Of a stretch of 64,000 nucleotides of DNA, positions 24,648 through 28,095 are shown piece after piece. The notes beneath the pieces are model-generated. The model was not told where the DNA came from, made no database searches, and worked only from the letters and a program-made list of their open reading frames with translations. The number at the start of each line of letters is the position of its first letter. Within the stretch, counting starts at the first letter, position 1. Origin of the DNA: Salinisphaera hydrothermalis C41B8 (GTDB lineage Bacteria > Pseudomonadota > Gammaproteobacteria > Nevskiales > Salinisphaeraceae); assembly GCF_000732535.1 (NCBI RefSeq), contig NZ_APNK01000016.1:1-64000 (forward strand), given 5' to 3'. The position numbers and the translations under genes were made by a program.

Positions 24648-26633
24648 ATGAGCCAGGACGACGGGCGTACGCTCGGTATCGAACCGGCCACGATCGATAT
24701 CGCCGGGCGCACGCCGCGTGCGCCGGCCTATGACGACGTGTATTTCTCGGCGGATGACGGCCTCGCCGAATCGCGGCACGTGTTTCTCGACGGCAACGAT
24801 CTGGCCACTCGTTGGGCCCGCTGGTCGGCATCGCGGGCGTTCGTGATCGGCGAGACCGGCTTCGGTACCGGGCGCAATATGTTGCTGGCCTGGCGTTTGT
24901 TCCGCGAGGTGGCGCCTGCAGCGGCGCGGCTGCATCTGGTGTCGATCGAACGCCATCCGCTCGGTGCGGACGATCTGCGCGCGTTGTGGGCCGATGATCC
25001 GGAACTGCACGGCAACGCTTGCCGGCTGGCGAATGGCTGGCCGGCGTTGCTGCGCGGCACGCATCGCCTGCGGCTGGATGATCGCGTCACGCTCGACCTG
25101 ATCTTCGATGACGTCGACACGGCGCTGAATGGGTTCGACGGTCGTGTCGATGCCTGGTTTCTGGATGGTTTTGCGCCCGCGCGCAATCCGGCGATGTGGA
25201 GCGCGCGCGTGTTTGCCGGATTGGCCGCGGCCAGCCGGCCCGGCGCAACCTTCGCCACTTACAGCTGTGCTCGAGCCGTGCGCGAGCACGCTGCCGCGGT
25301 CGGCTTCGAATGCGAAAAACGTCCCGGTGCCGGCCGCAAGCGCGAGATGCTGCAGGGCAGGCTGGCGAGCACGACGAGCGCGCCGGCGATCGCCGCGGCG
25401 CGTCGACGGCGGCCCTGGTTCGAGCCACCGCGGGCGGGCCCGGTGGGGCGTATCGCCGTGATCGGCGCCGGTATTGCGGGCACATCGGTGGCCGAAGCGC
25501 TGGCCCGGCGCGGTCAGCGTTGCGATCTCTACGATCCGCTCGGCGTGGCCGGTGCCGCCTCGGGCAACGCTCAGGCGGCGTTGCACGTCCGCCCGGCGGC
25601 CAACGGCGACGCGCGGACGCGCTTCCAGCTGGCCGCGCTGGATTATGTCCGGCGCTGGCTGGCCGATCTCGATAGTACACGCACGCTCTGGTCCGACTGT
25701 GGCCTGCTGCAGCTGGCGCGCGATGAGGCGGAGGCCGCCCGTCAGCGCAAATGCCTCGACCGGCTGGCCGTGCCGCCGACCCTCATGCGCGGGGTGGATG
25801 CGGCAACGGCGGCCCGCCTCGCGGGTACGCCGCTGTCCGGCGACGTCCGCGGCGGGCTGTACTACTCGTCGGCCGGCTGGGTGCGCCCGGATCGCCTGTG
25901 TCGATTGTTGTTCGAACGCAGTGGCGCGACGTTGTATCGCCGCGCGGTCACCGCGCTCGAGTCGATCGACTCGGGTTGGCGGCTGGCCAATGCCGACGGC
26001 GGCCGGGCCGATTACGAGCACGTGGTGTTGGCATGCGCGGGTGCGGCGCCGGCGCTGTGTGTTGATCTGCCGCCGCTGACGACGGTGCGGGGACAGGTCA
26101 GCGCGTTCGCGTCGACCGATCCTGCGTTTGCGCCGGATTGCGTGATCTGTGGGCGGGGCTACGCGCTGCCGGCGCTGGAAGATCGGCTGTATGCGGGCGC
26201 GAGTTTCCAGCGCGACCGGGCGGACGCGGCCGCGCGCAGCGCCGACGACGACGCGAACCGCGCCATGCTGGCCGAGATCGCCCCGGCGCTGGCTACCCGT
26301 CTGGGCCCGCCGGTGGCGGCACGCGTGGCGTTTCGTTGTACCGGGCACGATCGCATGCCCTGTGTTGGGCCGGTGCCGGATACCGCCGCCTGGCGCCGCG
26401 ATTATGCCGCGCTGGCGCTCGATGCGCAGCGTATCCCCGATGTGCCGGGCAGGCATCGCCGTGGCCTGTGGACCAGTCTGGCCCATGGCGCGCACGGGCT
26501 GGTCAGCGCGCCGCTGAGCGCCGAGATTCTGGCCTCGCGACTGTGCGACGAGCCGGTGCCGCGGGCGGCCGGCGAAGTGGATGCGTTGCATCCCGGCCGC
26601 TGGTTCGTGCGTGAACTGATTCGCGGCGGTTGA
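24648..26633 (+). CDS. mnmC: bifunctional tRNA-modifying protein MnmC
   Basis: A 661-residue enzyme that finishes mnm5s2U34 in the tRNA wobble position. The N-terminal (about 1-245) is the SAM-dependent methyltransferase (MnmC2) with ETGFGTGRN (69-77) and WFLDGFAPARNP. The C-terminal is the FAD-dependent cmnm5-demodifying domain (MnmC1), starting at IGAGIAGTSVAEAL near residue 270 and including GAASGNAQAAL. Order and length agree with E. coli MnmC (668). Monocistronic in appearance; the DAHP synthase leader begins right after its stop. Confidence 0.95.
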   Translation: MSQDDGRTLGIEPATIDIAGRTPRAPAYDDVYFSADDGLAESRHVFLDGNDLATRWARWSASRAFVIGETGFGTGRNMLLAWRLFREVAPAAARLHLVSIERHPLGADDLRALWADDPELHGNACRLANGWPALLRGTHRLRLDDRVTLDLIFDDVDTALNGFDGRVDAWFLDGFAPARNPAMWSARVFAGLAAASRPGATFATYSCARAVREHAAAVGFECEKRPGAGRKREMLQGRLASTTSAPAIAAARRRRPWFEPPRAGPVGRIAVIGAGIAGTSVAEALARRGQRCDLYDPLGVAGAASGNAQAALHVRPAANGDARTRFQLAALDYVRRWLADLDSTRTLWSDCGLLQLARDEAEAARQRKCLDRLAVPPTLMRGVDAATAARLAGTPLSGDVRGGLYYSSAGWVRPDRLCRLLFERSGATLYRRAVTALESIDSGWRLANADGGRADYEHVVLACAGAAPALCVDLPPLTTVRGQVSAFASTDPAFAPDCVICGRGYALPALEDRLYAGASFQRDRADAAARSADDDANRAMLAEIAPALATRLGPPVAARVAFRCTGHDRMPCVGPVPDTAAWRRDYAALALDAQRIPDVPGRHRRGLWTSLAHGAHGLVSAPLSAEILASRLCDEPVPRAAGEVDALHPGRWFVRELIRGG

Positions 26634-26659
26634 TTTCCGGGCCCGACCTGGCCTAATCT
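26630..26659 (+). promoter_or_regulatory. candidate promoter of the DAHP synthase leader
   Basis: TTGATT at 26630-26635, overlapping the mnmC stop region, is followed after 18 bp by TAATCT at 26654-26659. Both are moderate matches to the sigma-70 consensus. Initiation would fall near 26666, just ahead of the leader ORF. Confidence 0.4.
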
Positions 26660-26669
26660 CGGTCCCGTT

Positions 26670-26789
26670 ATGCGTGAACCCGTTCTCAATACACGACCGA
26701 TGTCTGTCGCCGCGGCGACGGCGTGTTCGTGCGCGGAATCACAATCGCACAAGTTTTACGGGTATTGGTTTAGCCGCACAGGCGCCTGA
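26670..26789 (+). CDS. aromatic leader peptide upstream of DAHP synthase
   Basis: A 39-codon ORF (or 29 codons from the second ATG at 26700) ending in TGA at 26787. Near its end it reads His-Lys-Phe-Tyr-Gly-Tyr-Trp-Phe-Ser-Arg, with codons TTT TAC GGG TAT TGG TTT at 26754-26771, covering all three aromatic amino acids. The Tyr-Trp-Phe codons lie in the 5' arm of a 12-bp hairpin, and the stop lies in its 3' arm. This is the layout of trpL/pheL-type attenuation leaders. The start is uncertain because no good Shine-Dalgarno is seen for either ATG. Confidence 0.65.
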   Translation: MREPVLNTRPMSVAAATACSCAESQSHKFYGYWFSRTGA

Positions 26790-26827
26790 ACCAATACGGA
26801 CAGGCGCCCGGACTCGGGAGCCTGACC
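26762..26827 (+). promoter_or_regulatory. attenuator: mutually exclusive leader hairpins
   Basis: Three helices compete. Helix A pairs 26762-26773 with 26786-26797 (GTATTGGTT with AACCAATAC plus three inner pairs). Helix B pairs 26781-26788 (GGCGCCTG) with 26801-26808 (CAGGCGCC). Helix C pairs 26801-26805 with 26820-26824 and 26807-26810 with 26815-26818. CTGACC (26822-26827) can also pair with GGTCGG (26848-26853), the terminator's 5' arm. Stalling at Tyr/Trp/Phe codons would open A, allow B, prevent C and free CTGACC as antiterminator. Without stalling, A and C form and the terminator folds. The pairings are read directly; the switching is inferred. Confidence 0.6.
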
Positions 26828-26842
26828 ACGCGTTTGCCAAAA

Positions 26843-26876
26843 CCCTCGGTCGGATCTCCCGGCCGGGGGTTTTTTT
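26843..26876 (+). terminator. rho-independent terminator of the aromatic attenuator
   Basis: An 11-bp stem (26843-26853 with 26859-26869, two G-U pairs) has a 5-nt loop and is followed by seven T. It lies 164 bp before the DAHP synthase start and 210 bp after the mnmC stop. The position relative to the leader ORF fits an attenuator; it could also end mnmC transcription. Confidence 0.8.
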
Positions 26877-27039
26877 CTTGCCGTGAAGACGGCATCGATG
26901 CAACGCGAGGATCGAAAGACGATGTTCAGCCCCTACGAGTTTTACCGGGATGCGGCCTACGGCCGTTTTGCGACCGCTCAACATGCCACCACACAACCTA
27001 ACGGCGCCCTATGTGCGTCATGCGATCAGGGAGCCGACC

Positions 27040-28095
27040 ATGTCCCGGCAAAACGCCACGGTTCGTAACCTCGACCTCGAATCCGCCCCCGCGGCGACGC
27101 CCACGCTTGTGGCCACTCCGGCCGAGCTCGCCGAGCAACTGCCGGTAGAGCCGATGCTCGCGGCGCGCATCGCGCATCAACGCGAACTGATCCGCGAGAT
27201 TCTCGCCGGTCGCGACGATCGTCTTTTGATTGTGGCCGGGCCGTGCTCGCTGCACGACCGCGCCTCGGCGCTCGACTACGGTGCCCGGCTGGCCGAACTG
27301 GCCGAAGAATGCGCCGACGATGCCGTGTTGGTCATGCGCGCCTACGTCGAAAAGCCGCGGACCACGGTCGGCTGGAAAGGCCTGCTGCACGATCCGCATC
27401 TCGACGGCCGCAACGACATCGGCGCCGGTCTGGCGACCGCCCGTGGTCTGTTGATCGAGCTGGCCGAGCTGGGCCTGCCGATCGCGACCGAACTGCTCAC
27501 GCCGCTCGCGGCGGATTATCTGTCGGACGTGTTGTCCTGGGCCGCGATCGGGGCGCGCACCACCGAGTCGCAGACGCATCGCGAGCGTGCCAGCGCGCTG
27601 GATCTGCCGGTCGGCTTCAAGAATGGTACGGACGGCTCGATCGGCACCGCGATCGACGCCATTTCGGCGGCCTCTCATCCGCAGCATTATCTCGGCACCG
27701 ATCGCCACGGCCGGCCGGCGGCGATCGCGACACCCGGCAACCCGGATGCCCATCTGATCCTGCGCGGCGGGCGCAGCGGCGCTAATCACGATGTCGAAAG
27801 CGTCGCGCGCGCCAGCCAGGCGCTGGCCGCGGTCGGCTGCCCGGAGCGGCTGATCGTCGATTGCAGCCATGCCAACAGCGGCAAGGTCGCGGCGCGTCAG
27901 GCCGAGGTCATGACCGAGCTGGGCGCGCGTCGGCGGGCCGGCGAAACCGCGATTGCCGGGCTGATGCTGGAAAGCCATATCGCGCACGGCAAGCAATCGC
28001 TGGGCGGCGAGTTGGCTTATGGCGTGTCGGTGACCGACGAATGCCTGGGCTGGGATGCGACTGCCGAAGCGATCCGCGCGGCCTGTCGGCGCTAA
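27040..28095 (+). CDS. 3-deoxy-7-phosphoheptulonate (DAHP) synthase, type I
   Basis: A 351-residue enzyme joining phosphoenolpyruvate and erythrose 4-phosphate, the first step of the shikimate pathway. Motifs in order: VAGPCSLHD, EKPRTTVGWKGL, GARTTESQTHRE, GFKNGTDG, LRGG, DCSHANSGK, ESHIAHGKQ and YGVSVTDECLGW. Length agrees with AroF/AroG/AroH (about 350); which isozyme type cannot be assigned. GGGAG lies about 6 bases before the ATG at 27040. The 27-residue segment before the core is Ala/Pro-rich. Expression is probably controlled by the upstream attenuator responding to Phe, Tyr and Trp. Confidence 0.94.
   Translation: MSRQNATVRNLDLESAPAATPTLVATPAELAEQLPVEPMLAARIAHQRELIREILAGRDDRLLIVAGPCSLHDRASALDYGARLAELAEECADDAVLVMRAYVEKPRTTVGWKGLLHDPHLDGRNDIGAGLATARGLLIELAELGLPIATELLTPLAADYLSDVLSWAAIGARTTESQTHRERASALDLPVGFKNGTDGSIGTAIDAISAASHPQHYLGTDRHGRPAAIATPGNPDAHLILRGGRSGANHDVESVARASQALAAVGCPERLIVDCSHANSGKVAARQAEVMTELGARRRAGETAIAGLMLESHIAHGKQSLGGELAYGVSVTDECLGWDATAEAIRAACRR

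Follow-up and report, generated by a model that had tools for sequence, protein, structure and literature searches.

Background

In Escherichia coli, the trpL, pheL and his leaders each respond to a single amino acid and serve terminal branches, and the leader of the his operon consists of three hairpins with two alternative pairings. The common first step of the shikimate pathway, carried out by 3-deoxy-D-arabino-heptulosonate 7-phosphate (DAHP) synthase, must answer to three end products. Here we describe the leader of a type I DAHP synthase gene (aroG) of Salinisphaera hydrothermalis C41B8, located in a stretch of 64,000 nucleotides (contig NZ_APNK01000016.1, positions 1 to 64,000 of the forward strand; hereafter the window). 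Judged from its sequence and that of its relatives, the leader is very probably a ribosome-mediated transcription attenuator, sensing charged tRNA for Phe, Tyr and Trp together. It is followed by a second aromatic-rich reading frame.

Some related systems have been described. In E. coli, TyrR and TrpR mediate the repression of aroF and aroH (PMC11802643). In Corynebacterium glutamicum, the leader of aroR-aroF contains Phe-Tyr-Phe and stalling of the ribosome raises transcription (PMC11802643, citing Neshat et al. 2014; PMC4046766); according to the account of it in PMC11802643, this leader responds to Phe and not to Tyr, and Trp is not named there. For Shewanella aroF, a list of predicted RNA motifs has the entry 'Attenuator sensing tyr-tRNA', with reference to a 1980 E. 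coli paper (PMC2659441). The relevant parts of a survey of actinobacterial leaders (PMC1262725) and of a survey of premature terminators (PMC2965389) name no DAHP synthase leader. Two leader peptides in front of one gene are described for ermB, where ermBL and ermBL2 act by a drug-dependent stall and translational attenuation (PMC8274638). Our literature search, which covered few subscription papers, returned no DAHP synthase leader in Pseudomonas or Halomonas and no tandem aromatic leaders.

Results

The first leader in the window

The region between an upstream ORF of 661 residues (24648-26633, which we take to be mnmC-like) and the DAHP synthase gene forms a leader of about 370 nt. Its first part contains the following features:

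26670..26789, + strand: open reading frame 1 (ORF1), leader peptide MREPVLNTRPMSVAAATACSCAESQSHKFYGYWFSRTGA (translation) with an alternative start at 26700 and a TGA stop at 26787-26789
26754..26771, + strand: control codons TTT TAC GGG TAT TGG TTT (Phe Tyr Gly Tyr Trp Phe), read from the sequence
26762..26797, + strand: helix A:B (26762-26773/26786-26797), putative protector or pause hairpin, 12 pairs including one T-G
26781..26808, + strand: helix B:C (26781-26788/26801-26808), 8 pairs
26801..26824, + strand: hairpin C:D, 9 pairs with one mismatch
26815..26861, + strand: putative antiterminator D:E (26815-26820/26856-26861 and 26822-26827/26848-26853), 12 pairs possible
26839..26876, + strand: intrinsic terminator E:F (26839-26873, T-run to 26876), 15 pairs in the scan, seven T at 26870-26876

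An original prediction, made from the letters of the window alone, had pointed to a short ORF with Phe-Tyr-Gly-Tyr-Trp-Phe codons, and this ORF was found, with the codons at 26754-26771 and the stop at 26787-26789. Up to its stop it ends in KFYGYWFSRTGA (translation; also given as ...HKFYGYWFSRTGA). Helices A, B and C were likewise present where they had been placed, with 12, 8 and 9 pairs. Of the predicted 11-bp terminator with seven T, the seven T were confirmed, while the scan gave 15 pairs instead of 11. The pairing of CTGACC (26822-26827) with the 5' arm of the terminator also exists, and had been understated: the full duplex, CGGGAG-C-CTGACC (26815-26827) with GGTCGG-AT-CTCCCG (26848-26861), has 12 pairs and one small internal loop. 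Its partner strand 26848-26861 lies in the 5' arm and loop of the terminator.

A 146-nt stretch folds at -73 kcal/mol, compared with -48 in dinucleotide shuffles (z -6.7, 0/200). In an Rfam scan of the window only a tRNA reached its gathering score, with none from the amino acid leader or T-box families, and comparison of the ORF1 leader with Pfam and NCBIfam gave no family (one NCBIfam match at 15.5 bits, with a cut-off of 190). A search of a plasmid collection gave no match.

Conservation in the family

A protein search of 61 genomes identified orthologues in 14 of the 17 genomes of the family (13 from the window's genus, one from a second genus); the other three (G002, G015 and G016) had a match only at the paralogue's level of similarity. 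All 14 orthologues, whose leaders were not selected for the motif, keep Phe, Tyr and Trp codons in a leader ORF as well as a terminator. Examples of these leaders are MFYGYWFSRTGA, YFYGYWFSRSGV, FSGYWFIRYGFMTPGA and FYYYWFGRMRA. Loss of the aromatic codons or of the helices with retention of the terminator, which according to the original prediction would have counted against an attenuator, was sought in these 14 close relatives and occurred in none of them. No GYWF core was present in any of the 16 homologues that came from other families within the order (L016-L031). Looser aromatic stretches were seen in L027 and L031, and a terminator about 70 nt before the match in L024, L026 and L031.

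For the analysis of covariation 11 of the 14 family leaders were aligned, leaving out three with a longer spacer. In the terminator-state helices 89.5% of the cells were paired, against at most 60.5% in slid versions, and 12 cells were changed on both sides compared with 4.8 in shuffles (0/500 as high). The inner 12 pairs of terminator E:F were 100% paired and included three compensatory pairs; hairpin C:D had 86.7% of its cells paired and two pairs with a change on both sides. Helix B:C was 98.9% paired with little variation, and helix A:B had 82% of its cells paired. The covariation check that had been proposed for these relatives was thus positive for the terminator-state helices, gave no excess in D:E and said little about B:C, which hardly varies. 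The control codons, the terminator, their conservation and the covariation of the terminator state are established.

Distribution and phylogeny

Among the 80 named DAHP synthase loci listed, the same leader occurred in at least Pseudomonas, Stutzerimonas, Halopseudomonas, Halomonas, Modicisalibacter, Chromohalobacter and Salinicola; carriers include P. putida (L064 and L070), Stutzerimonas stutzeri (L069) and Halomonas elongata (L086). From these 80 loci, 21 were picked for carrying the motif and combined with the 14 family leaders to a set of 35, on which a covariance model was trained. Phe, Tyr and Trp codons were all present in 35/35 leaders, and a terminator in 35/35.

Against the window's genome the covariance model gave one strong match (1.5e-22), the next being 7.5e-4. 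In a class sample of 369 genomes, 46 matched at E up to 0.01. A value below 1e-10 was reached in only six of them, of which three belong to the window's genus, one to family f165 and two to f175; the matches in the remaining 40 were 4.8e-6 or weaker and were not counted. At E up to 1e-6 the element was present in 87 of 119 Pseudomonadaceae-like and 71 of 81 Halomonadaceae-like genomes, with a single match in all but one. These labels were given because most of the enzymes of those families that were placed in the tree group with named members. A DAHP synthase was located downstream in all 60 loci opened, which were the 30 best-scoring per family.

It is very improbable that the first element merely terminates the upstream gene and that ORF1 is there by chance. 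Its position would fit the end of the upstream ORF 24648-26633; however, in three families the leader peptide and the terminator are found together with DAHP synthase.

In a quick tree of 119 enzymes, the 43 leader-bearing rows formed one clade with support 100, together with L089 (Marinobacter) and L100 (Acinetobacter). Most rows of this clade had been chosen for their leader; L089 and L100 had not, yet both carry a diverged aromatic leader with a terminator of its own. L089, L100 and L229 are on long branches. The leader type is confined to one DAHP synthase clade in the sample. The second DAHP synthase of the same genome (paralogue L002, G000:C17:69720-70679) falls in another clade, outside the leader-bearing one, and neither an aromatic leader nor a terminator is present within 700 nt upstream of it.

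The locus of L100 (approximately -323 to -48 of the match) has the appearance of a diverged tandem, with an ORF ending in YFYFWQFR, a terminator and then MYTFNTSYFSNGYWFYFSQF after AGGAG. That of L089 (approximately -263 to -106 of the match) has the leader FFWWFGYGFYFSQSPGRP and a terminator near the gene, with little room for a second ORF. Outside the clade, an aromatic-rich ORF was observed upstream of the gene in two Chloroflexota loci, L090 (VYGYWYFFTG) and L124 (RYFGYYFYR), and in L138 (GFFWFGFYYFF, a metagenome-assembled genome of Pseudomonadales). The terminators that precede the gene in these three are of another make, and they are possible separate single-leader cases. Two Arthrobacter loci (L083 and L114) share the short ORF stretch MTNRWYAYFSLALE upstream of DAHP synthase, which may be an actinobacterial leader containing Trp, Tyr and Phe.

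Proposed mechanism of the first leader

From these elements we infer a ribosome stall and an antiterminator switch. The pairings A:B, B:C, C:D, D:E and E:F would form an ordered chain in which each helix excludes the next. With all three aromatic amino acids plentiful, the ribosome would reach the stop of ORF1 and mask B, so that C:D and E:F form and transcription terminates. If any one of them is scarce, the ribosome would stall in the codon run; B:C could then form and D would be free to pair with E, which would block the terminator and allow transcription of aroG. In the absence of translation A:B and C:D would persist, making termination the default. The geometry agrees with this: the codon run ends just before B, so that, given the footprint of a ribosome, one positioned on any control codon leaves most of B free whereas one at the stop covers it. 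A stall would therefore favour B:C and D:E, and thus read-through, and completion would favour C:D and E:F.

The exact antiterminator D:E is less certain than the attenuator itself. A D:E duplex can be drawn in 35/35 leaders, and when D and E strands were exchanged between five lineage groups, the own combination ranked first of 120 permutations. The halomonad duplex differs in sequence and stays complementary (GGGTTGCC with GGCAACCC), and in L005 CGGGAAG pairs with CTTCCCG.

Several observations weigh against the scheme. Foreign E binds as well as or better than the own strand in 3/5 lineage groups, and only 5/35 D:E duplexes beat 95% of their own shuffles (median z -1.1). In the register of the window, D:E is 66.7% paired in the 11 relatives, without excess covariation. 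A simulated stall lifts the expected number of D:E pairs from 7.6 to 9.9 only (17/35 up, 9 down, p 0.056). Helix A:B, too, has two pairs that do not form in 7-8 of the 11 relatives. In addition, 21 of the 35 leaders had been selected for the motif and were part of the training set of the covariance model, and the aromatic ORF and terminator in L090, L124 and L138 mean that the idea of such a leader is not tied to this clade alone.

Taken together, the claim of a three-amino-acid attenuator before DAHP synthase is supported by the comparative evidence on codons, terminator, covariation and B:C pairing. Of the complete stall and antitermination chain that had been envisaged, the leader, the terminator and B:C were borne out and the D:E antiterminator is weakly supported.

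A second aromatic-rich frame, ORF2

Between the terminator and aroG a second frame is present, which the original prediction had missed:

26922..27068, + strand: ORF2, MFSPYEFYRDAAYGRFATAQHATTQPNGALCASCDQGADHVPAKRHGS (begins MFSPYEFYRDAAYGRF...), between terminator and aroG, overlapping the start of aroG by 29 nt
27040..28095, + strand: DAHP synthase type I (aroFGH family, aroG), TIGR00034 E 2.2e-125, PF00793 E 5.4e-73

The true start of aroG is most likely 27040 and not 26950, because GGGAG precedes 27040 and relatives begin at the corresponding place. The longest ATG frame of the DAHP synthase begins at 26950; automatic annotation would add 30 residues and hide ORF2.

At the place of ORF2, an ORF with a Shine-Dalgarno-like sequence was present in 34 of the 35 aligned loci (absent in L073). 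Four or more aromatic residues among the first 30 were counted in 28/34 ORF2s, that is 20/20 outside the window's family and 8/14 inside it; the aromatic-poor family members have two (L004, L014), one (L005) or three (L007, L008, L011). Over the 34 ORFs, aromatic residues made up 22.4% of codons 2-25 and 0.25% afterwards, compared with 1.8% and 5.5% when this stretch was read in its two other frames. For the window's family alone the values were 17.0% and 0.3%. A second set of 60 loci had the ORF in 55 (aromatics 24.9% vs 0.7%), with four or more aromatics in 52; the loci missing from these 52 are the five without ORF, L201 and L204, for which the frame chosen by the script is probably wrong, and L225, which is aromatic-poor. 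The two sets are not wholly independent, because the enzyme stretches encoded by L178 and L067 are identical.

ORF2 overlaps the start of aroG in 14/14 family loci, by 29 nt in 10, 26 nt in two, 23 nt in one and 4 nt in L007, where the frame of ORF2 is shifted relative to its neighbours. With the gene start as chosen by the script, ORF2 ends 28-49 nt before the gene in the Pseudomonas group; in halomonads its end ranges between 45 nt before the gene and 17 nt inside it. A Salinicola-like lineage (L073, L221, L225, L228, L230, L233 and L235) has kept the first leader and has no aromatic-rich ORF2, which makes it a natural single-leader comparison. The sequence TGGCGATTTA, coding for W-R-F with a CGA codon, is present in 73/89 ORF2s; the window has GGCCGTTTTG instead. 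Fusion of ORF2 to DAHP synthase by frameshifting was considered and dropped, as the gene frame is closed too near the gene (e.g. in L067 and L068); by eye, none of the usual slippery heptamers was seen.

A possible RNA element inside ORF2

Of the 73 ORF2s with TGGCGATTTA, 40 (36 distinct) share an Arg at 7 and Gly-Gly at 20-21 from the Trp, and the 36 were analysed. In these ORF2s, from Pseudomonas and halomonads, helix S1 (CGGTCGG with CCGACCG) was 94% and helix S2 (GCCACC with GGTGGC) 100% paired, the top two of 1378 possible 6-pair helices by share paired, although the selection for Gly-Gly already determines four of the six letters on the 3' side of S2, and the stretch is also coding. Six cells of S1 and S2 were changed on both sides, compared with 2.0 in shuffles (1/500); S2 alone was not significant (97/500). 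As a caution, sliding S1 and S2 by +3 columns gives 14 doubly changed cells, yet only 49% pairing. The two helices, which directly follow the last aromatic codons in Pseudomonas and halomonads, would possibly interlock as an H-type pseudoknot. The stretch is absent in the Stutzerimonas type and was not seen, by eye, in the window's genus.

Possible functions of ORF2

The composition of ORF2 is that of a sensor: in both sets, aromatic residues cluster in the first 25 codons and are avoided further on. ORF2 may act as a second sensor by translational attenuation, in which ribosomes starved for aromatic tRNA stall in the first 25 codons and free the initiation of aroG; we give this tentative reading somewhat less than an even chance. 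The stall would alter the RNA or, in the window's genus, where ribosomes completing ORF2 must cross the start of aroG, an early stall would keep them from running over it. The overlap with the aroG start across the family, and the position of S1 and S2 in Pseudomonas and halomonads, fit this reading. Translation of aroG is the likely output, because the terminator scan of the window found no second terminator between ORF2 and aroG.

In simulations with a stalled ribosome masking the RNA, the aroG start site became cheaper to open in 51 of 82 loci and costlier in 15; however, this effect was not clearly above a codon-shuffled control (23/42 lower, p 0.07). The fact that only 8/14 family ORF2s carry at least four aromatics among their first 30 residues also speaks against a second sensor, as do the variable position of ORF2 relative to the gene between families and the Salinicola-like lineage without ORF2.

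A less likely explanation is that ORF2 is a mere coupling frame, delivering ribosomes to aroG or covering RNA, with aromatic codons that do not sense. Its stop lies from 49 nt before to 29 nt inside the gene in all 82 folded loci (script-chosen start), and the Shine-Dalgarno-like sequence is in line with such a role, but coupling leaves the packing of aromatics in codons 2-25, their near absence later and the presence of TGGCGATTTA in 73/89 unexplained.

That ORF2 encodes a small functional protein seems improbable. The ratio of nonsynonymous to synonymous differences (pN/pS) was lower in frame than in the two shifted frames in Pseudomonas (0.67 vs 1.08 and 1.01), halomonads (0.74 vs 1.22 and 0.94) L001/L003 (0.42 vs 1.26 and 2.03) and, on few differences, L008/L011 (0.37 vs 1.46 and 0.93). 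However, no such signal was present in the Stutzerimonas type (0.89 vs 0.86 and 0.82), L012/13/15 (1.11 vs 1.09 and 0.76) or L006/9/10 (0.77 vs 0.75 and 1.28), and three ORF2s tried against Pfam and NCBIfam gave no family. Moreover, the nucleotide-level constraint in ORF2 resembles that of RNA, and its second half is not common to all groups.

If ORF2 is the second sensor, one gammaproteobacterial DAHP synthase clade might be controlled by a sensor of all three aromatic amino acids with two stages, first the transcription attenuator and then ORF2 on translation, the latter accompanied in Pseudomonas and halomonads by a conserved pseudoknot-like RNA of its own; this combined proposal is a tentative one, which in our estimate falls just short of being an even bet. 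Both mini-genes have been kept in several gammaproteobacterial families, and it is therefore probable that the cell senses all three amino acids, and perhaps does so twice.

Candidate start of the leader transcript

By eye, one candidate promoter was noted:

26630..26659, + strand: candidate promoter, TTGATT at 26630-26635, 18-nt spacer, TAATCT at 26654-26659

A promoter-like TTGA...TAAnCT was seen by eye upstream in L003, L062 and L063 as well, and TAACTT in L072; a stricter consensus promoter scan of the window gave 0 sites. The candidate -10 box ends 10 nt upstream of the ATG of ORF1, and because this distance is so short the leader mRNA may be nearly leaderless. At the place corresponding to 26630-26670 of the window, a Shine-Dalgarno-like GGAGA was observed by eye in L062, L063 and L072.

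Discussion

At the locus described here, the tRNA pools of all three amino acids appear to be read by a single RNA that serves one enzyme. Several of the genera that bear the element include laboratory or industrial species, such as Pseudomonas putida, Stutzerimonas, Halomonas and Chromohalobacter. If ORF2 is a second sensor, the locus would allow a direct test of attenuation that acts first on transcription and then on translation, and it would be a target in strains producing aromatic compounds.

With the E. coli trpL, pheL and his leaders the first leader shares the control codons, the competing helices and the intrinsic terminator, and the his leader has the same three-hairpin chain. E. 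coli aroF, aroG and aroH concern the same reaction and the same signal amino acids, which are handled there by three enzymes and two repressors instead. The contrast with TyrR and TrpR drawn in the original prediction is therefore a fair one, but leader attenuation of DAHP synthase was already known in C. glutamicum, and for that reason the novelty is limited to the three-amino-acid form and to the lineage. As in the window, the DAHP synthase gene of C. glutamicum (aroR-aroF) is preceded by a leader peptide that contains aromatic codons; the published descriptions used here mention no second ORF, in which C. glutamicum would differ. Four actinobacterial DAHP synthases in our tree (none from C. 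glutamicum) are outside the leader-bearing clade. Two leader ORFs before one gene are shared with ermB, where the stall is drug-dependent; if the two-stage reading is true, the arrangement would be new in that two amino-acid leaders in tandem control one biosynthetic gene at two levels.

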